From the NCBI GenBank assembly GCA_963377175.1, contig CAUJNA010000594.1, positions 62,501 to 126,500 on the forward strand: 64,000 nt of DNA, read 5' to 3'. Of this stretch, positions 13,299-63,529 are shown piece after piece. The notes under the pieces are model-generated. The model searched no databases and was not told the origin of the DNA. It worked only from the letters and a program-made list of their open reading frames with translations. Position 1 is the first letter of the stretch; every line of letters begins with the position of its first letter. Origin of the DNA: Effrenium voratum (taxonomy: Eukaryota; Sar; Dinophyceae; Suessiales; Symbiodiniaceae). A program made the translations under genes and the position numbers.

Positions 13299-14939
13299 CT
13301 GGCTGGCGAAAGCCAACCGGCGACAAGAAGTCTCCTGTTTCGACGCGTTTGCGGCTTGCGGCAAACCTAGGCAAGAAAAAAAGGAGGAATGGATGAGTAT
13401 CAGCTTGATTTTCTGGAAGCCGAGACACACGCGTTTGTGTATATATTGCACTTTCTTCCAAACATGTGCCTCAAACTTACACATGTTAGAACCAAATACC
13501 CTGTCCATCACCCACGCAATCTATGTTGCAAAGACCCGACTTCACATGGTCCATGTCCATGTGCCAAAGCTCGACGCCATGCAGCAGACCAAAAAAGCGG
13601 TGCTTAGGGGACCCAAAGAACGGTCGGGCGCACTGAGCCCAAGATGAAGCGGAACACACGGGGTTTCTCTCAGCCAGCCTTGATGCGCTGCTGCAGGCGC
13701 TCCGTCTTCGCCTCGCAGGCGCTTCGTGACGCTTTCTCTCATGTCGCAGGCTTTGCCGAAATGAAGCCCTGAGACTAAATGTATTAGGTGCAAGCCTTGG
13801 AACCCAATGACCCAGGTGGAAAGAAAAAAATCGCTTGCCACGGCTACGGCTTGGAGGTGAAAAATGCAAGTAAAGATGCTTGGGTCTTATAGGCGACTTG
13901 CAATGTCCTCAGCGTCCAACACGAAGACACCGCTCTCTCACGGGCCTCTCATTTCCTTCTTGTGCGATCAAATGCCTTTCAAAAAAGGCAAACGGTTTCC
14001 CACTGGCAAGCAATACACCAAGTCCCCTCACGAGTCTAACTGGAGCAGTTCTCAAATTGTATCCAGGCTTGGTTGCAACATGGCTGGCAAGGTTTGTGCC
14101 GATCCACGGTCAAACCCTACTGCAACGCCCCAGAAAGAGCTTGAGTGCACAAAGGTTTGGCATTGCCCTGCTGAGGAAACAAGCAAGGGGAGCCTTCTGT
14201 TGACCTGGCGCACATTTTGCCGCTTGCCACAGCCATATTGAACTGGTGGCCGCTTGCCGGGAGAAGCCAGCAGTACATCCGTCTCGCAGCTCAACCCGCT
14301 CAATCCTTTTCTATTCGAGCCCCGTAGGTTGGTACATTGATTCTATGGCTGCGCCAAAGCCAATGCCCCGCAATGTGTGGGCGGGGGAAAATCGCACATC
14401 GCCGAAATGCAGTGTCAACGCAACCTTTGCACTTTGCACGGTACAAACCCCGGTGGGCAAAGCTCTGCGTTGGCCCACAAACGAACAGACCATATGTCGG
14501 CAGCACGGAGACAGGTTTCACTACTGGCATGTCTTGAAGCGTGGACCAACCGCTGAGCCTGGGGCATGCCACAAAACTGGGTCAGCCAGCTGGCTTGAGC
14601 TGTGTGCTGTACACATTGTGCTATCGTGCACCTGCAACTCTCCGGCTTGTTTCCCAAAGCGCCCCAGTGCCCATGCTTCCTCATGGCACGTGCTTCCTCC
14701 CCGTGGCTGGCAAATGTGAAGCAAGCATGACGAACTTGACAGATGACAGGCACCAAACGGTCTGCAAGCCGGAGTCGGATACCGGCCACGCGCGCTTCTG
14801 CGCGCAGCGGGGCCGGCGGGGCCAAATCGATCCAGGGATTGCACCTCTGGTGCAGCCTGGGCAACACCTGGCCCTCAAACGGGGGCAGTGAGGCCGCAAC
14901 TTGCGCTGTCCCAGTGGCCAAAGATGTATGGATTTGCTT

Positions 14940-17775: not shown

Positions 17776-17990
17776 CATTCCCAAGGAGGTTTGATATAAA
17801 CAGCACCGCAGCATTTTCACTCCAAGCGATGCGAATCTGATAACCCACCTTTTCCTGTGGGATTTGCGTTGGTATCCACAGCATGAATTTCCTCATGCTG
17901 TGGCCCAGTCAAATCGCCGATTTCCTCGACACATCGGGCTTACCCCCGATAAGCTCTGGATGCCCTGCATCAAGCAGAATGCATCTCCCA
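17776..17990 (-). repeat. B2 repeat of the split-direct-repeat element
   Basis: 215 bp, 98% identical to 18229-18443 in direct orientation. It is predicted to be the 3' end of the element. Confidence 0.85.
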
Positions 17991-18114
17991 CCACAGAGCT
18001 AACTGACTGACTGGGGGCCTGGTCCCCCAGGCATTCCCCAAGCGCGGCGCGCTCTTCAAAGATCACGGACGTCCCAACGAGGGGGGCCGGTGAACTAGGG
18101 CGGGATAGGGTGGG

Positions 18115-18228
18115 GTTAAAAATTAGCCAGTTTGGATCATACTTGAGCCAAAAGGCCCCGCATGATCCAATACACTCCTTGCAGAATGAAGCCTGTAAAC
18201 CCAAGCCTTCCAACCTGATACAGGATTA
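18115..18228 (-). repeat. A2 repeat of the split-direct-repeat element
   Basis: 114 bp, identical to 24276-24389 except at one base (18124 versus 24285). It contains 9-bp inverted arms TTGGATCAT (18132-18140) and ATGATCCAA (18162-18170) around a 21-nt core. Confidence 0.85.
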
Positions 18229-18443
18229 CATTCCCAAGGAGGTTTGATATAAACAGCACCGCAGCATTTTCACTCCAAGCGATGCGAATCTGATAACCCA
18301 CCTTTTCCTGTGGGATTTGCGTTGGTATCCACAGCATGAATTTCTTCATGCTGTGGCCCAGTCAATTCGCCGATTTCCTCGGCACATCGGGTTTACCCCC
18401 GATAAGCTCTGGATGCCCTGCATCAAGCAGAATGCATCTCCCA
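18229..18443 (-). repeat. B1 repeat of the split-direct-repeat element
   Basis: 215 bp, directly adjoining A2 with no intervening base. Four substitutions separate it from B2. Confidence 0.85.
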
Positions 18444-18476
18444 AGGCACTCACTTTCACAACCTCTCCCAACGCAC

Positions 18477-19010
18477 TCACAGGAACTCAGCGAAGGTAAT
18501 CACTGCGCGGTACGGAAGACTCAGTAGAGCTGGAGGGAAAAGACTGAAACTCAGCTTGAAGTGGTTGGCCCTGTACCCTGGGACACTGGGTCCTAATCGG
18601 CTGATCACGTAGGCCCAATTGGATTTGGATGGAATGTGTTCCCAGTAAAGGGAGGCTCGCAACGCAAAGAGCAAACACTGAATATACGTCGCCATCTTGG
18701 CCAAGTCGGGGTTGTCACTCCTGCCCCTGATCAAACACATAAGACTGGCGAACTCCGCTTTTTCCGCGGAATTGGTCGGGTCTCGCCGTGAGGGCGTGCA
18801 CCACCATGAATAGCTCCAACTGGGCTATTTTATGGTCGCCTGGTCCCCACATGTCATAGACCTGCGAGGGGATGATGGCCACAAAGGCTTCCCGGATCTG
18901 CACGCCACCGTCCTGGAAGACCAAGTGGTATCCGCCGGACCCTTGACGAGGGGCCTCCAAAGCCGCGTCCGAGGCAGCCACCACCCTCGGCACGTCCATG
19001 GGTAGGACCA
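18477..19010 (-). pseudogene. RNase H domain of the split-direct-repeat element
   Basis: After the reverse transcriptase, the minus-strand frame reads VVAASDAALEAPRQGSGGYH (first catalytic Asp of RNase H), then KIAQLELFMVVHALTAR (helix with the catalytic Glu), then after a frame change RGRSDNPDLAKMATYIQCLL, with the third catalytic Asp in RSDN, and WEHIPSKSNWAYVISRLG. The last is the usual end of retroelement RNase H, where IPSKSNWADxISR is expected; here the Asp is Tyr. The frame change near 18.73 kb and this substitution mark it as decayed. It ends just before B1. Confidence 0.6.
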
Positions 19011-20101
19011 TCAACTCCCTCCTTGGGCGCATACTGATGATGGCCTCCAACACATCAAAAGCCGACAGGAGGCTGGCGCCGGCTCTGCTGGAGCCCCCGT
19101 ACTGGTGCTCCTTCAACGCCTGGATCTCGCCCAAACCGAGGCGCCCGAAGAGGCCATGCTCCAGGAAGTTGACCATACCGTAGAGTTTTGCGGCTTGACC
19201 CGGGGCTGCTCTTCCTGGCGTCACGCATGAAGGTGAGCACCTTCTGCTCGAGTCGCTCTCGAACCCAAAAACGCGCACGCCCATGCGTGTGGATCTCCGA
19301 GAGGTCAAAGTCAAGACCCAAGAAGGTACCCACTTCCGCGGCTCCCTGGCGCTTAACGGGGTGCCCAGCAGGTCATTGAGGACGCCAAAGCTCCACTGGG
19401 CTGATAGGCCGTGGACTGCGCGGTCGGTGATGTGACTGTCATCGAAATACATGGACACCATGATTGCCAGAAAGCGCCTACCCATAGCTTCCGCCATCCG
19501 AGAGTAGCGGTTGAAGGAGGTGACCGCCAACGGCGCGGTACACCTGGAAGGCGGGCCCCTGCCATTCCTGGTGGTACCAGACTACCACACAGGCCAAGGC
19601 CTCCTGTCGCGACATAGGACAGTGGTGGTAGGCATTCGGCCAATCGAAACCGGCCCCCATCCACTGCCCCTGCTGCGCGAACCGCTCCCAGGTGCACTCC
19701 TGAAGGCAGGCTGCTGCAGCTTGAACGTGGAGCGCCGGGCGGAGCGGCGTGCACAAAACTAGTTTGTTGGCATCTCTTGACGATGCGGATTGCCCGCCCC
19801 GTGCTGCGTCGTCTATGAGACGTTGCTTGCCGGACGCCTGTGTGATGACACAGCGAGGTATGAGCCGGTAGGGGTCTCCTTTGGCATACCGCTTGAGCTG
19901 GCTCAGGTTCATCGGGGGGGTGCAGAACCCCTCCTTGTGATCCTTAGTGGACTGCTCGAGGACGAAGGAGTCTGTGGAACCCGGCCGCACGCCCGCGATG
20001 GTGGCGGCGTTGTGCTCCTCCCAACCAGCCAGCACCTCCGAATGGGCGATTGCCTCGACGGGCTGGTGGGGGAAGACTCCGTAATGAGGGGCATAGCCCA
20101 C
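19010..20101 (-). pseudogene. Reverse transcriptase of the split-direct-repeat element
   Basis: The finger region lies at 20101-19560: DPYRLIPRCVITQASGKQRL then IDDAARGG, followed by GAGFDWPNAYHHCPM, the motif A region with the first catalytic Asp. The next part is in another frame, LAVTSFNRYSRMAEAMGRRF then MVSMYFDDSHITDRA, where YFDD is the catalytic Y-x-D-D box. A third frame gives MGTFLGLDFDLSEIHTHGRA. The frame breaks near 19.5, 19.34 and 19.2 kb mean it cannot encode an intact enzyme. Motif content and order are those of a retroelement polymerase that copies the element's RNA. Confidence 0.7.
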
Positions 20102-20140
20102 CGCGGGAAGGGGGAGGACGGTCGCATACGACCCTACCCG

Positions 20141-20460
20141 CCGGTCACATTTGACCCTACCCTACTTTGGCTTCAACAACCATGCCAAAATGGCAGCGTA
20201 AAGCTCCAATTCCACGACATGGCCACGCGAAACGCGCCGGTCACATTTGACCCTACCCTACTTTGGGTTGTTATCAGTGCCAAGTGGCAATACTATGTTC
20301 CAATTCCACGGCAGGGCCACGCGAAACGCACCGGCCACAAGCGACCCTACCCTACTTTGCGTTCAAGCAACATTGCCAGCTGGCAAAGATGGCAGCATCA
20401 AGCTCCAATTCCACGGCAGGGCCACGCGAAACGCACCGGTCGCATTTGACCGTACCCTAC
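20141..20460. repeat. Tandem repeat, 94-105 bp unit, about 3.3 copies
   Basis: Successive units begin near 20141, 20237, 20331 and 20436 with CCGGTCACATTTGACCCTAC-type sequence and contain CCACGCGAAACGC. It lies immediately upstream (minus strand) of the reverse transcriptase coding start. Confidence 0.85.
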
Positions 20461-20495
20461 CTGACGGTTTCTTGCCAAATGCGTCACTTTAGGTC

Positions 20496-21638
20496 TTGAG
20501 GCTTTTACATCGCTTTCAGGTATAGTCATCACATCACTTTAGGGCTTTCTGGTTTGCTGTCCCTTCTTTAGTTAGTCACCACGTCACTTTAGGGTTTCTG
20601 GTGCGCTGTCACTCCTTTAGGCAGTTACCACATCACTGTAGGGTTTCTGCTGCGCTGTCGCTGCTTCAGGTAGTTACCACATCACTTTTAGGGTTTCTGC
20701 TGCGCTGTCACTTCAGGTATAGTCACCACATCACTCAAGGGTTAGGGTTTAGCTGTCACTTCTTCAGGTAGTTACCACATTACTTTTAGGGTTTCTGCTG
20801 CGCTGTCACTTCTTGAGGTAGTCACCACATCACTTTAGGGTTTCTGGTGCGCTGTCACTTCTTCAGGTAGTTACCACATCACTTTTAGGGTTTTTGCTGC
20901 GTTGTCACTTCAGTTATAGTCACCACATCACTTTAGGGTTTTCTGGTTTGCTGTCACTTCTTTATGTAGTCACCACATCACTTTAGGGCTTTCTGGCTTG
21001 CTGTCACTTCTTGAAGTAGTCACCACATCACTTTAGGGTTTCTGGTGCGCTGCCACTCCTTTAGGCAGTTACCACATCACTTGAAGGTTTCTGCTGCGCT
21101 GTCGCTTCTTCAGGTAGTTCCCGCATCACTTTTAGGGTTTCTGCTGCGCTGTCACTTCAGGTATAGTCACCACATCACTCTAGGGTTTAGGGTTTAGCTC
21201 TCACTTCTTCAGGTAGTTACCACATCACTTTTAGGGTTTCTGCTGCGTTGTCACTTCAGTTATAGTCGCTGTCACTCCTTTAGGCAGTTACCGCATCACT
21301 TTAAGGTTTCTGCTGCGCTGTCGCTTCTTCAGGTAGTTCCCACATCACTTTTAGGGTTTCTGCTGCGCTGTCACTTCAGGTATAGTCACCACATCACTCT
21401 AGGGTTTAGGGTTTAGCTGTCACTTCTTCAGGTAGTTACCACATCACTTTTAGGGTTTCTGCTGCGTTGTCACTTCAGTTATAGTCGCTGTCACTCCTTT
21501 AGGCAGTTACCACATCACTTTAAGGTTTCTGCTGCGCTGTCGCTTCTTCAGGTAGTTACCACATCACTTTTAGGGTTTCTGCTGCGCTGTCACTTCAGGT
21601 ATAGTCACCACATCACTCTAGGGTTTAGGGTTTAGCTG
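20496..21638. repeat. Minisatellite with TTTAGGG words inside the retroelement
   Basis: More than 20 imperfect units of about 45-50 bp built on TTCAGGTAGTTACCACATCA and TTTTAGGGTTTCTGCTGCGC. Four places (near 20741, 21181, 21399 and 21619) carry GGGTTTAGGGTTTAG-type runs or a variant, the plant-type telomere word also reported for dinoflagellates. Higher-order repetition is visible because blocks of about 240 bp recur (compare 21100-21240 with 21320-21460). Confidence 0.9.
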
Positions 21639-21639
21639 T

Positions 21640-22860
21640 CCGATGGACGCCCGACAGCGTTCCTTCAGGTTATGATTGTCCATCACCATGCTGGCCGCGT
21701 ACCACAGGTCGTCATCCAAAGTGGGAAGGACTTCCAACAGGGTTGCCGTGGTGGTCCACTGCAGGGAGGCGGCAAAATGGGCGTCTGCATCCAGCCCATA
21801 TCCTACCTTGTGGTTGTAGGCCCCATGCTGCTTGCCCGCCGCCAGCCGCTGACACCTCCGACTAGCGTTGGACAAGGAGGGTGGTCCCAAGTAGCAAGTA
21901 AAGGGTTCCTGGTTCAACAGGTCCTCCAACAGGCCACTGGAAAGATTGGAACGTAGAGCTTGCGAAAGGCCAAAATTACATCCTCCTGAGGAAACCAGAG
22001 TGACATCGACTGCAGGGCGTCACCGCCGCGGATCGATCCCATGATGGCCGCTGCCCTGACTGAGCACAGAGCCCGGGCTTGCCTATGCCGCCGCCCAGTG
22101 ACTCTGGGCAGGCTAGCCTTGGCATCCGGATGGGTCGCATCAAAGACCATCCCAGCCAGCGCGTCTGCCTCGCAGACACCGTCCTGGCCGCAATCACATG
22201 CCAGCCGCTTGCCCTGCAGCGAAGGCAGCTCCGCCTGCAAATTGGCGAGGACAAAGTCCACGTAGATCGTCCGTCGTACAGTGTGCCCCTGCACGAACGG
22301 TGATGCCCTCTGTGACCGTGGGACCCGGTGGGAGTGGTGGCCCTGCCCCATGTAAACCACGTCCGGCGGCAGCTTGCCATCTGCGAGTACGTCAGCCACC
22401 CGTACCACCGTAGGCAGCCGCGCCCGCTCCTCGGGATGCAGTGGTGGCAACCCGAGTGTGATGGCCAGCGGAATTGCCCAGCTGCGCATAGCTCTGGGAT
22501 CGATATCCAGCCAGTGCTGCCTGCGGCCACACGCCTCCAGCGGCGGCATCCGTGGCACGTGGAGTCGGGCATGCCCTTCTCGGGCCGCCCACCAACTGAC
22601 CGAGACCGCAATTGCGAAGGCCAGGGTGGCCGAATATTCCGCTTCTTCCTTCGACGGGAATTGGTGCCTCCCCTGGATGTCCTCCCAAGGATCCCACTCC
22701 CATGCTGCATGCTGATGGTGGCATTCGCGAGGGTGAATCAGCTCGATCTCCTGGATGTTGTGCCGCAGCCGCTGGTGTTTGCAACGCGCTGACATAAAGA
22801 CGCATGCCGAATACGTCGTGTCATACCAGCGACCGACTCCATCATGGTCTCCTCCTGAGG
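21640..22860 (-). pseudogene. Cys-rich C-terminal region of the methyltransferase-like ORF
   Basis: The minus-strand frame is open from 23065 to 21914. After WYDTTYSACVFMSARCKHQR and FPSKEEAEYSATLAFAIAVS it reads WLDIDPRAMRSWAIPLAITL, and then ELPSLQGKRLACDCGQDGV and CEADALAGMVFDA. The L-x-G-K-x-L-x-C-D-C ... C-x-x-D-x-L pattern resembles small Cys-rich domains of the DUF4326 type. A further frame (21929-21640) reads LPTLDDDLWYAASMVMDNHN up to the minisatellite edge. The function of this region in the element is not known. Confidence 0.5.
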
Positions 22861-23300
22861 GAGGGACCAATGGAGGCTTCGAGCCGGGTTCTCCCGCAGG
22901 GCCCCTCTGCCATCGTCCGCGATAGCCTGGAGCTGCTTCAGAATCCAGGAACATGCCGCACCCGCCTTTGGTTCTTGGGGTCAAGCCCGGGCAAACCTTC
23001 TGGGTGTACTTCAGAACGCAGTGGCTTGGGACCTGGGCAGCCGCCCGCAAAGGTTCTAGTAGCAATCTCTCTGGCCCTGGATTTCGTGGAGCAATCTAAA
23101 CTGCGGCTGTGAAGGCTGCTGACCGCATCGTTGCCTCCAGTGGCTTGTTGCCTCAACGGGTTGGACAGGTCGTGCCCCGGGTCCAGAGACCAGTCGATGG
23201 GCAGCACCCTCCAGCCACAGAACAGAAAAGCCTTTGCCAGGGGCATGTTGGACGTTCCGACCCTATGAGGGAGTCCCCCTCCCCCCGAGGATCGCAGCGC
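22840..23300 (-). pseudogene. Methyltransferase-like region of the retroelement
   Basis: One frame gives AKAFLFCGWRVLPIDWSLDP, GHDLSNPLRQQA, SLHSRSLDCSTKSRAREI and LRSEVHPEGLPGLD. At about 22.93 kb the reading shifts to a second frame (LQAIADDGRGALRENPARSL then HWSLPQEETMMES) and at about 22.85 kb shifts back to the first. A G-W-R-V-L-P-I-D-W strand pair followed by an R-E-N-P motif resembles a Rossmann-type SAM methyltransferase, close to the cytosine-5 class whose motif VI is E-N-V. The two compensating frameshifts show decay. Assignment rests on pattern memory and needs a profile search. Confidence 0.5.
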
Positions 23301-23469
23301 ACCTGTGCTGGCCGTTGGGGCACGACTGCCCCGCCTTGCATTGCCCGTGCTGGAAAGCTTGGCATAGCACGGTGCCATTTTTCATGGCGCGCGCGACCGC
23401 TCTCCCCACGATCGGCTTTGCCAACGGGGGTTTGCCCCCCCGTGCTGCCGGCTTGGCAGGTGACCCCTG

Positions 23470-24237
23470 CTAGCGCTCCTTGGTAGGCGCCGAGAAATTC
23501 CAGGCCGGGGCCCAGTGAGCGTCGCGTGCCTCGTATGTGGCCTTGATGACCTGGCCCAGCGTCAGGGTGGACTCCCTGAAACGGCTTACCCAGTCTGCCC
23601 TCTCCTTGGTGTCTCTCTGCAAGAGCCATCCGAGTCGGCTAGCATGGGGCAGGCTGGCCGAGGTGCGCCGGGCTCTCGCGTGGTAGCGCATTACCACGTC
23701 CCAGGGCGTAGGCCAGCAGCAACGTGAAGAGCCTGTCCAGGTACGTCTCCCAGTCCTGGTGCCCGGGCTGCTCGTCGTCCGGCTCCTCCGTCCACAGGCC
23801 TTCTCCAAGCTTGCGCTTCTTGCAAGGTTTTCACCTTCCAGAAGGATGTCACGCACAGGAGACGCTTGGACATTTCGAGATGTGGAGGCGGCCCAGGCCA
23901 GACGCGCCTCCTTGAACCAAGACTGCACGCCGACACCAGGTGCCAATGAACGGGAACTTGAGGCCGCCAAGAGACCCGTCACATCTTGCACAATGGGCAT
24001 CAATGAAGGGTGCAAATTGTAAGTGGGGTATCTCCCCGCTATCAGCCACGGGCAGGGGCGTTTGCACGAAGGGGGCATGCAACACTTCCACAGCCGAAAG
24101 CCAGAGCAGCCGGGCCTGGCCGTGATTCCCCTGCTGCAGCAAATTGCCCACAGGCGCTTGAAGTCGAGGTAGGCGCCTGTGGACAAGATAGGACGATCCG
24201 TGTGAACGGCCAAGTCAACTCCTGGAACTGCCAACAT
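23470..24237 (-). CDS. N-terminal ORF of the retroelement (gag-like position)
   Basis: A 255-codon open frame begins with MLAVPGVDLAVHTDRPILST just inside the A1 repeat. It has no zinc knuckle, and the lower part (about residues 140-170) is Arg/Ser/Thr-rich, suggesting a frameshift. C-terminal text such as RDTKERADWVSRFRESTLTL is protein-like. By position it could be a gag-type protein. No tyrosine recombinase signature (R ... H-x-x-R ... Y) was seen. Confidence 0.4.
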   Translation of the reverse strand: MLAVPGVDLAVHTDRPILSTGAYLDFKRLWAICCSRGITARPGCSGFRLWKCCMPPSCKRPCPWLIAGRYPTYNLHPSLMPIVQDVTGLLAASSSRSLAPGVGVQSWFKEARLAWAASTSRNVQASPVRDILLEGENLARSASLEKACGRRSRTTSSPGTRTGRRTWTGSSRCCWPTPWDVVMRYHARARRTSASLPHASRLGWLLQRDTKERADWVSRFRESTLTLGQVIKATYEARDAHWAPAWNFSAPTKER

Positions 24238-24275
24238 TCGACAAGTAACCCTTGCCGAACATGCAAAAACCAGAA

Positions 24276-24389
24276 GTTAAAAACTAGCCAGTTTGGATCA
24301 TACTTGAGCCAAAAGGCCCCGCATGATCCAATACACTCCTTGCAGAATGAAGCCTGTAAACCCAAGCCTTCCAACCTGATACAGGATTA
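24276..24389 (-). repeat. A1 repeat, predicted 5' end of the retroelement
   Basis: 114 bp matching A2 at all but one base. It has the inverted arms at 24293-24301 and 24323-24331. On the minus strand the core contains TTTTGGCTCAAG, identical to the last 12 nt of the dinoflagellate spliced leader. Confidence 0.85.
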
Positions 24390-29426: not shown

Positions 29427-29487
29427 AAAAGCTCACGGCCTGCGCGCATGTACAAGCTATGTAGTACAACACCACATGTGCATTGAC
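29427..29487 (-). repeat. Copia terminal direct repeat, left
   Basis: 61 bp, 53 of 61 identical to 35225-35285 in direct orientation (AAAAGCTC ... GTAGTACAACACCAC). Much shorter than a usual LTR, so it is either an LTR remnant or a dispersed repeat. Confidence 0.55.
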
Positions 29488-35224: not shown

Positions 35225-35285
35225 AAAAGCTCCAGGCCTGCGGCCATGTACCAGCTATGTAGTACAACACCACACGTACACTGAC
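35225..35285 (-). repeat. Copia terminal direct repeat, right
   Basis: Right partner of 29427-29487; 8 mismatches in 61. It is followed directly by a CT microsatellite. Confidence 0.55.
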
Positions 35286-58910: not shown

Positions 58911-60659
58911 AGGGTTGTGTTGTTTGGGTTGGAGCAGTGCGTGTTTCCCTATAACTGCCGGTTTGTGCCGTGGCCACTGTGGTCGCTGCTGCTGGCTTGC
59001 GCTCGTTACTCCTTTTTTATCTGTCAGCCTGCTGCTTACATGCTCTGTTTGCTCCATGTTCTCACCGCTTATTCCCATTGTGTTGGTGGGTTCCTCCTCA
59101 AGTGCTGGCGTAGTGGGCCGATGCCTGACCTCTTGCGCGGCCATTTCCGCACCCTTTTCTTTTTTGTTGGCGACACCTGCGTCGCACATCTTGTGCTTCT
59201 CGCGGTGTACGCTCGTGCCTCGGGCCTTGTCAGCCGCCTGTGTTTACCTTTGTTTGTCCATTGGTGTTCACAATGGCCTGGCTCAAACTCCATGGAACCT
59301 GTGAGTTCGTCAGCTACCACCAGTTCCTTTTTTCCTTTTTTTTTCGAATGATCAGCGGTTCAATTCCAAAACGACATCCAGATTGGGTTGGGTTGGGTTG
59401 GTTGGTTGGCTAGTTTTTTTGTCAGGCCGATTTGGGGTGATTTGGGTTTATTTGGGTTCTTGCATCCTACCAACCGGATGTGGCAGCTGAGTGGGGGTGA
59501 GCTGATCCAAAACAAAGGGAACGTAGCCAAGTCAAAAAAAAATGTTTTTTCACAAACAATGCAACACATTGTTTTCTTTGAGCCCCTTCCAGAAATGGTT
59601 GTGTTTTTCGTTTTCGGATTTTGGTTGTTGATGCCTCAGCTGATTTTCAATCTGAAATTGCGTGGGGCTGCGTGCAGAGAGAAACCGATGGAGAGTTGGG
59701 GTCTGACACCCTGATCCATGTTGGCTTGCGCGAGGCTGGGACGGTTGGCTGGACAAGTCGTCCTGAGCACTCGATGACCTTGGCATGTACTGGAATCCGG
59801 GTATGCCACTTCGAAGGCCGATTCTCGGTTTTTTGGTGGCAGCACGCTGGTGCCTTTTTGTTTCGCCTGCTGCACGGCCTTCTGGCACGGCCACCGGAGG
59901 CGAGCAGCTCACGGTCATTGTTGTGTTTTTCTGCGCCAAGTCTGCACCGATCTCATGGAAAAAGGCCCAATTCCAGGACCAAATCAATTGGCGCGGATGG
60001 TCGGTGCGTTTCGGCCATAACACTATTCACTTAAGTTGAACAAACTGCGCCAACAGTTAGAGGAGCTGAGCCAGGCCCACAAAGTGCCAAGGCACTGGAG
60101 CAGTGCCTGGGCCTTGTCATCTGGGCCACCAGCATTTCTAAGCACCTAAGCCCGTGGCACCGCCTGTGTGTGTGTGACGGAGCGGGCTCAAACTCCTTTG
60201 CAAACTGGTGTCAGAGTCAAGCCATGCGTGTCAACTTGCAAATTTTATTATCCACTTGCAACGATCCTTGGGCCCATTGTGGCTGCGCGAAGACTGTGTG
60301 GTCACTGACTCGCACGGCTGGGCATGTGCGCATAATACATTTTTCCCCAAGCCGCCTGAAGCATAATCGCCGGTCGACAAGCAGAAAGTTGATGGTACAA
60401 AAAAGGCTTCAGAGAAGCGCCGGGCTTACAAATTCCCTAATTAGCCCAAGGTTCAGGGAACACGGGGCAGAAGGCCTTAGGGCTGTGTTTTCCCACATGC
60501 CGAAAGAACAAAGGAATGGAAGCATCCATCCCGGCAAAAAGGCCATCACCCGAAGGGTACACTGTGCCTTACGCCTGTGAGTCCTTCTCACAGGCCACCG
60601 AGAACACTTGCTGCACAAAGCGCACAGCAAAGCTGAAATAGAAGATCCCAGCCAGTTAA

Positions 60660-61268
60660 GGCATGTTGCACTGCTCCTAGCTTGAACCCAAACATGAACC
60701 CCCAAAAGAACAAAGCAAGTCCGAAGCGGCCGCAGTTCTTTTTACCGGGATTGCTGAAAGTAGCACTGCTTCCAGGGCAAGGGCACTGGTGCGCCTGGAA
60801 CAGGAGGTGCGTTGACCCCCCGTGAAACTGAAACGGGCAAGACAATGCGTGTCCTTGCAGAGACTGAATGGTCCGGAGACCAGAGTTGGTCCGGAGACCT
60901 GGTCCGGAGACCAAGAGGTCCGGAGACCACCAACGAAAGTGCAGAGCGTCTGCGACCTATACTTGCAGAGCCTTGTATAAGGCAGTGCAGGGTGGGTGGG
61001 TGGGTTTCACATGAAACCGCAGGTTTGGGTCAAGGCTAGGAGCAAAACGGCCACCGCGTAGTTCGATTCACAACATGCCCTAAACACAAGGGAAAAGAAA
61101 CCCTAAGCGTTGAGGCATGTTGCACTGCTCCTAGCTTGAACCCAAACATGAACCCCCAAAAGAACAAAGCAAGTCCGAAGCGGCCGCAGTTCTTTTTACC
61201 GGGATTGCTGAAAGTAGCACTGCTTCCAGGACACTGGTGCGCCTGGAACAGGAGGTGCGTTGACCCCC
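60660..61268. repeat. Direct duplication of a 155-161-bp segment
   Basis: 60660-60820 and 61114-61268 are almost identical (GGCATGTTGCACTGCTCCTA start, GGTGCGTTGACCCCCC end), differing mainly by a 6-bp deletion in the second. The offset is 454 bp. Between them lie four copies of GGTCCGGAGACC (60868-60929). Confidence 0.9.
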
Positions 61269-62793: not shown

Positions 62794-63440
62794 CCAAGCC
62801 GCGGAACCTCCACTCTCCCCGGGTTCCTTGCTATACGCGCTTAATTGCTTCAACATGTCGGATTACATGTCGGATGAACATGTTCTTGGCACTCCGGGTG
62901 CGCCACCCTGCCGCGCCACCTGCCCGGCATTGAAGCCGCGCCAAGCCGCTGAACCTCCACTCTCCCCCGGGTCCTTGCTATATGTGCTATATGTGCTATA
63001 TCTTACACGCCAAGCCGCCGAACCCCCACTCTCCCCCGGGTCCTTGCTATATGTGCTATATGTGCTATATCTTACACGCCAAGCCGCTGAACCCCCACTC
63101 TCCCCCAGCTCCTTGCTATATGTACTATATGTGCTATATACTCTGTACGCGCGAAATCTGTACTATATGTGCTATATAGGCCATATAGCACATATAGCAC
63201 ATATAGCAAGGAACCCGGGGAGAGTGGATGTTCAGTGGCTTGCCTTGAGATATAGCACATATAGCACATATAGCAAGGAACCCGGGGAGAGTGGATGTTC
63301 AGTGGCTTGCCTTGTGAGATATAGCACATATAGCACATATAGCAAGGAACCCGGGGGAGAGTGCCTTGTGAGAGCCATATAGCACATATAGCACGTATAG
63401 CAAGGACGCGGGGGACTGTGAGGGTTCGGCGGCTTGGTGC
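62794..63440. repeat. Palindromic cluster of TGCTATATG repeat units
   Basis: Units of about 70 bp (GCCAAGCCGC, CCACTCTCCCC, GGGTCCTTGCTATATG, GTGCTATAT) run forwards from 62794 to about 63150 and as reverse complements from about 63180 to 63440. The centre is near 63175 (CTATATAGGCCATATAG). Confidence 0.9.
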
Positions 63441-63529
63441 CTGCCGCGCCTGCCTGCCCAACACAGGGTTGCCCCGGTCTCCCAGAAAACTGCCTGACTC
63501 TAGGCGCAGCGTGACACGGCGCGCACGGG

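Follow-up and report, generated by a model that had tools for sequence, protein, structure and literature searches.

A probable degenerate tyrosine-recombinase retrotransposon with split direct repeats in a Symbiodiniaceae-like dinoflagellate

How does a retrotransposon move that ends in split direct repeats and has no visible recombinase gene? This question is raised by positions 17776-24389 (minus strand) of a 64-kb stretch of Effrenium voratum DNA, referred to here as the window. The locus very probably represents a degenerate, non-autonomous tyrosine-recombinase (YR) retrotransposon of the PAT/Ngaro type from a Symbiodiniaceae-like dinoflagellate. In its relatives, a first open reading frame (ORF) holds a YR-like region, a CCCH-like zinc finger and a phosphatase fold. 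The polyprotein encoded behind it has methyltransferase-like, DUF4326, reverse transcriptase (RT) and RNase H parts.

The structural evidence lies in two pairs of direct repeats, A and B. Recomputation reproduced exactly the coordinates, the mismatch counts and the B1-A2 contact given in the first-pass annotation. In minus-strand order, with the coding region between A1 and B1, the repeats and the spacer are:

24276-24389, minus strand: A1, outer 5′ end of the element, 114 bp with one mismatch to A2
18229-18443, minus strand: B1, 215 bp with four mismatches to B2
18115-18228, minus strand: A2, abutting B1 (junction 18228|18229)
17991-18114, minus strand: 124-bp spacer between A2 and B2
17776-17990, minus strand: B2, outer 3′ end of the element

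Bases just outside the A and B repeats differ, so that neither repeat extends further. Two copies each of A and B, and no others, were listed in the window at a 60% identity threshold. Between 17.5 and 24.6 kb, with the tandem array described below excluded, exact direct repeats reached 116 bp at most; 200 dinucleotide-preserving shuffles gave a mean of 12.15 bp and a maximum of 16 bp. As is typical of YR retrotransposons, no target-site duplication was seen, because the flank ends did not match at any length between 2 and 20 bp. A1 at the 5′ end and B1, A2 and B2 at the 3′ end is the arrangement of PAT-, Ngaro- and VIPER-type elements, and the same A-coding-B-A-B order characterizes SymbioDIRS-Dnmt3. 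Since the available text of PMC6681497 describes this order as common to PAT, Ngaro and VIPER elements, it cannot by itself choose among them. The earlier diagnosis of PAT/Ngaro from the repeats thus holds for the split-repeat type and is not decisive beyond it, and the placement of both element ends to the base derives only from the internal B1A2 junction.

The coding region between A1 and B1 was read by comparison with related proteins, which are denoted by P numbers. Among 7,991 scored candidates 49 homologues were found, mostly unnamed RT polyproteins. All named homologues were from E. voratum: P0041 (73% identity over 28% of the query), P0048 (88% over 11%) and P0045 (48% over 39%). From 5′ to 3′ the following parts were recognized:

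23897-24219, minus strand: what is left of the first coding segment, with homology to residues 47-154 of E. voratum P0041 (86% identity, one frameshift)
23876-23897, minus strand: internal deletion junction at which about 955 codons are missing, with P0041 residues 154 and 1110 about 20 bp apart
23459-23882, minus strand: second upstream segment (P0041 residues 1108-1285), three frameshifts, 39 residues skipped
23287-23412, minus strand: CCCH-like zinc finger segment, motif recognized by inspection in the frame VLCQAFQHGQCKAGQSCPNGQH
22530-23243, minus strand: methyltransferase-like domain, approximate limits from comparison with relatives
22142-22375, minus strand: DUF4326 (PF14216) domain, limits taken from P0001
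20119-21640, no strand assigned: tandem array of 49-bp and 94-bp units with 15 copies of TTTAGGGTTT, from repeat analysis and tblastn
19062-20107, minus strand: RT with four frameshifts and YFDD at 19438-19449, from alignment to relatives and the model of relative P0002
18480-19068, minus strand: connection and RNase H, from alignment and the fold seen in a relative, with a stop codon 33 bp before B1

On inspection, CARCDG in the first segment appears to be a zinc-ribbon-like motif, and the second segment may be called Gag-like by its position only. The finger segment showed weak matches (E 8e-7 to 0.09) to the finger regions of P0050, P0052 and P0054-P0062; in the relatives, Pfam reported zf-CCCH only below its cut-off (P0047, E 0.0088). 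RT followed by RNase H was evident in the model of P0002, and pieces of both are present in the window. The domain list of the first-pass annotation (methyltransferase-like, Cys-rich, RT, RNase H) fits the family, and in the window copy it is read across about 12 frameshifts. DUF4326 scored below the Pfam cut-off of 25 bits in the window ORF (E 0.001, 20.1 bits) and was found in relatives P0001 (E 6.1e-8) and P0024 (E 1.8e-9).

The methyltransferase-like region is less easily classified. Inspection of the relatives suggested C5-type motifs. Pfam did not detect PF00145 in any of eight slices of the region up to an E-value of 10, nor up to 0.5 in eight relatives, some of which lack the region; a profile search against the PDB was negative as well. 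An hhalign comparison with E. coli Dcm gave a probability of 0.8%, with motif I and the catalytic Cys in register. The Dnmt3-type DNA_methylase domain (PF00145) in Pol that marks SymbioDIRS-Dnmt3 was thus not found. Both this region and DUF4326 were barely tested by fold search, because the best 50 matches of the Pol model all fell on the RT.

The absence of a recombinase is explained by the junction near the 5′ end. In tblastn searches P0041, a gene model of 1,599 amino acids, matched the window with residues 47-154 at 24219-23897 and from residue 1110 onward at 23876, while residues 155-1109 had no match in the window. The missing stretch amounts to about 2.9 kb. In the relatives, this block carries the YR-like region, the CCCH-like finger and the phosphatase fold. 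P0050, a single ORF of 948 amino acids on a 333-kb contig, contains these three parts in this order, the YR-like region being taken as residues 98-470, and the sequence past its phosphatase continues in a shifted frame with a match to window positions 23874-23812. The missing block is therefore placed in DNA and not just in a gene model. Furthermore, in P0062 from Symbiodinium sp. CCMP2456 (3,834-bp contig) a single gene model spans the YR-like region and a portion of the polyprotein. Sixteen proteins with all or part of the block were searched against the entire window with an E-value limit of 0.1. Within the element, matches came from the CCCH-like finger and the downstream segment, and with P0062 also from the polyprotein; the YR-like part of the 16 relatives had no match inside the element. 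Two points qualify this picture. The figure of 955 residues is approximate because P0041 is a gene model, and residues 383-440 of P0064, from the YR-like part, matched 14346-14519 (plus strand) outside the element. With an E-value of 0.043 among 16 queries this match is at chance level. Apart from it no recombinase was found in the window, and with the block absent and unmatched, this copy encodes none, which bears out the first-pass annotation. Its suggestion that the gene was lost or is supplied in trans can now be made specific: the residues absent from the window copy are precisely where the relatives have a recombinase-like ORF.

The remaining sequence shows further decay. A frameshift-aware alignment over 1,498 codons in seven partly overlapping segments contained 14 frameshifts and no stops. 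About 200 of these codons were counted twice, which leaves about a dozen frameshifts; the procedure penalises both stops and frameshifts and skipped 98 residues in all. These counts neither prove nor exclude that the copy was defective at insertion. Identity of the window copy was 86-95% to P0041 and P0001, and 54-55% to P0002. Under the split-repeat model described in part of PMC6681497, the low divergence of the repeats, which differ at 5 of 329 sites, suggests that the window copy was inserted recently. Whether the deletion came before or after the last insertion, one copy is compatible with either order.

The 1.5-kb tandem array contains a 219-bp higher-order repeat that is 98% matched. 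Its 15 copies of TTTAGGGTTT are the only ones in the window. According to tblastn, the array occupies the place of residues 311-364 of P0001; it thus interrupts pol and replaces about 54 codons. The TTTAGGG of the array resembles the plant-type telomere repeat.

Is the missing region a tyrosine recombinase? Six residues, R192, K217, Y296, R299, W322 and Y336, were invariant in all ten aligned rows and correspond to R, K, YxxR, W and Y. Their spacings are YR-like: R-K 25, R-R 106-107 and R-W 23, compared with 23/99/22 in lambda Int and, for Cre, 28/119/23; both sequences have the expected letters at the catalytic positions used. The R-K distance of 25 stems from six of the ten rows, as the automatic pick took the wrong Arg or Lys in the other four; the invariant columns give 25 for the first row too. 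By inspection, the P0050 model seems to follow the YR order of helices, R, two strands, K, a third strand and helices. A phage integrase ranked 14th in a viral fold search with this model (E 8.3e-4, 349 columns) and was assigned to the YR region by its length, since the phosphatase is shorter than 349 columns.

Several results speak against this assignment. The integrase match is loose (TMt 0.35, root-mean-square deviation 11.2). Pfam found PF00589 in none of ten members, and PDB profile matches included no YR and one unrelated match. Six PHROGs matched at E 0.06-0.43, comprising one minor tail protein and five unnamed families, none of them named integrase, and hhalign against nine bacterial or phage YRs gave probabilities of at most 0.6%. 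The His of the HxxR motif is Tyr in all ten rows, and the W-Y spacing is 14-16 instead of 9. The P0050 model, built from 15 sequences, has a mean pLDDT (predicted local distance difference test) of 65.0 and a pTM (predicted template-modelling score) of 0.37, and its W419 and Y433 lie in stretches under a pLDDT of 50. In each PDB fold search with this model, the best 50 matches were phosphatases or other chains that aligned to the phosphatase part, so the YR-like part was barely tested by these searches. In summary, motifs, spacing and model favour a YR and profile searches do not: the profile check of full-length relatives proposed in the first-pass annotation yielded no YR by Pfam, PDB profile, PHROGs or hhalign. 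The region is therefore termed YR-like, on the basis of motifs, spacing and a partly low-confidence model. The dual-specificity phosphatase fold of the same ORF, with an HCxxGxxR motif, is found in P0050 and relatives and not in the window.

These data can be read in several ways. Tentatively, and with slightly less than even confidence, we propose an undescribed family of Symbiodiniaceae YR retrotransposons. A single ORF of this family would hold a recombinase with a His to Tyr exchange in HxxR, together with a CCCH-like finger and a dual-specificity phosphatase. Its Pol would contain C5-methyltransferase-like and DUF4326 parts, and the window copy would be a recombinase-less derivative mobilised in trans via its A and B repeats. 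It is unlikely that the missing ORF is no recombinase and that an RT element with split direct repeats was integrated in trans by the recombinase of another DIRS-like family. The failure of every profile search to find a YR in this ORF, the position of two key residues in low-confidence stretches of the P0050 model, and SymbioDIRS elements with a Pfam-named YR in related hosts (PMC5890265, in the text available) would fit such a scenario. However, the invariant R/K/R/W/Y with YR-like spacings, the YR-like order of helices and strands in the P0050 model with an integrase among the fold matches, and the fixed place of the ORF beside Pol in relatives argue for a recombinase.

Errors of long-read assembly or collapsed repeats might also have produced part of the deletion, the array and the frameshifts in an otherwise intact element. 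Five differences in 329 repeat positions together with 14 frameshifts (overlaps counted) and no in-frame stop in seven segments are indeed odd for neutral decay. Base-level error could hardly remove about 955 codons at a single joint or create a 1.5-kb array with diverged units, and we regard this explanation as rather improbable. Finally, the interlocked order of A and B, the abutting B1A2, the lack of a pair of long terminal repeats (LTRs) and an exact repeat of 116 bp, compared with 16 bp at most in the shuffles, make it highly improbable that the repeats arose by chance or that the assembly duplicated sequence around an element of the LTR type.

For a degenerate YR retrotransposon, the general split-repeat model would imply the following course. 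RNA reaching from A1 to B2 would be reverse transcribed, the internal B1A2 junction would template the joining of both ends, which closes a circle carrying a BA junction, and a recombinase would insert this circle at the BA junction without target duplication. The window copy would have lost the roughly 2.9 kb with the recombinase-like region, or would have been mobilised without it. A last move after the deletion would have required mobilisation in trans, which we only infer for this copy.

A link between dinoflagellate retrotransposons and split direct repeats, which the first-pass annotation did not make, has already been published. The accessible part of PMC5890265 describes SymbioDIRS-Dnmt3, DIRS-like elements of Symbiodinium with A-coding-B-A-B repeats and a tyrosine recombinase, and also reports DIRS elements without DNMT in Symbiodinium (de Mendoza et al. 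2018). The window element and its relatives share with SymbioDIRS the dinoflagellate host group, the repeat order, RT and RNase H, a methyltransferase (here methyltransferase-like) in the Pol of part of them, a separate recombinase ORF (here recombinase-like) and an RT that aligns poorly with Pfam. In contrast, the methyltransferase-like and recombinase-like regions described here are not seen by Pfam, the relatives carry DUF4326 and the phosphatase fold, and the window copy lacks the recombinase-like region. The DNMT-less DIRS families of Symbiodinium were compared with the window element by their description.

PAT-like elements of the order DIRS likewise have split direct repeats, a methyltransferase domain and a zinc finger in a Pat1-like Gag (available part of PMC4157794). 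Earlier methyltransferases of the DIRS class are given in the accessible text of PMC5890265 as Dam-like adenine types, whereas the motifs here look C5-type by inspection; moreover, Pol is preceded here by the recombinase-like ORF, and the internal repeats come after RNase H. Ngaro elements of Cafeteria burkhardae, in the portion of PMC8547959 available, share the order A1-[ORFs]-B1A2B2 with the window element, and RT, RNase H and a recombinase occur in that family. Their Pfam-detectable YR is ORF3 after RT-RNase H, whereas the recombinase-like region here precedes Pol and escapes Pfam. The accessible text of PMC4157794 describes Ngaro elements as lacking a putative methyltransferase; the present relatives have methyltransferase-like motifs, but no profile or significant hhalign match. 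In the literature searched, with incomplete coverage, neither the combination with DUF4326 and a phosphatase nor a recombinase of this type was found, and no report besides PMC5890265 described split repeats in dinoflagellates. The available part of PMC6338049 contains neither 'phosphatase' nor 'DUF4326'.

Pattern searches for related DNA matched 3 and 18 stretches in viral contigs and 46 in genome contigs, and no locus was confirmed in either. Rfam gave no match in the window at gathering scores. Elsewhere the window contains a dispersed 61-bp direct repeat (29427-29487 and 35225-35285, 87% identical), a 125-bp direct repeat (60655-60779 and 61109-61233, 98% identical, 454 bp start to start) and, at 62939-63443, repeats of 67-69 bp in two mutually inverted arrays with arms of up to 109 nucleotides, 90% complementary.

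The proposed family connects mostly unnamed RT polyproteins of the dinoflagellate type with a repeat structure and with a candidate recombinase, and would explain why standard profiles miss that recombinase. It is also a retrotransposon family whose recombinase-like ORF includes a phosphatase fold. With its near-identical repeats and no recombinase, the window copy offers a case in which mobilisation in trans can be tested.

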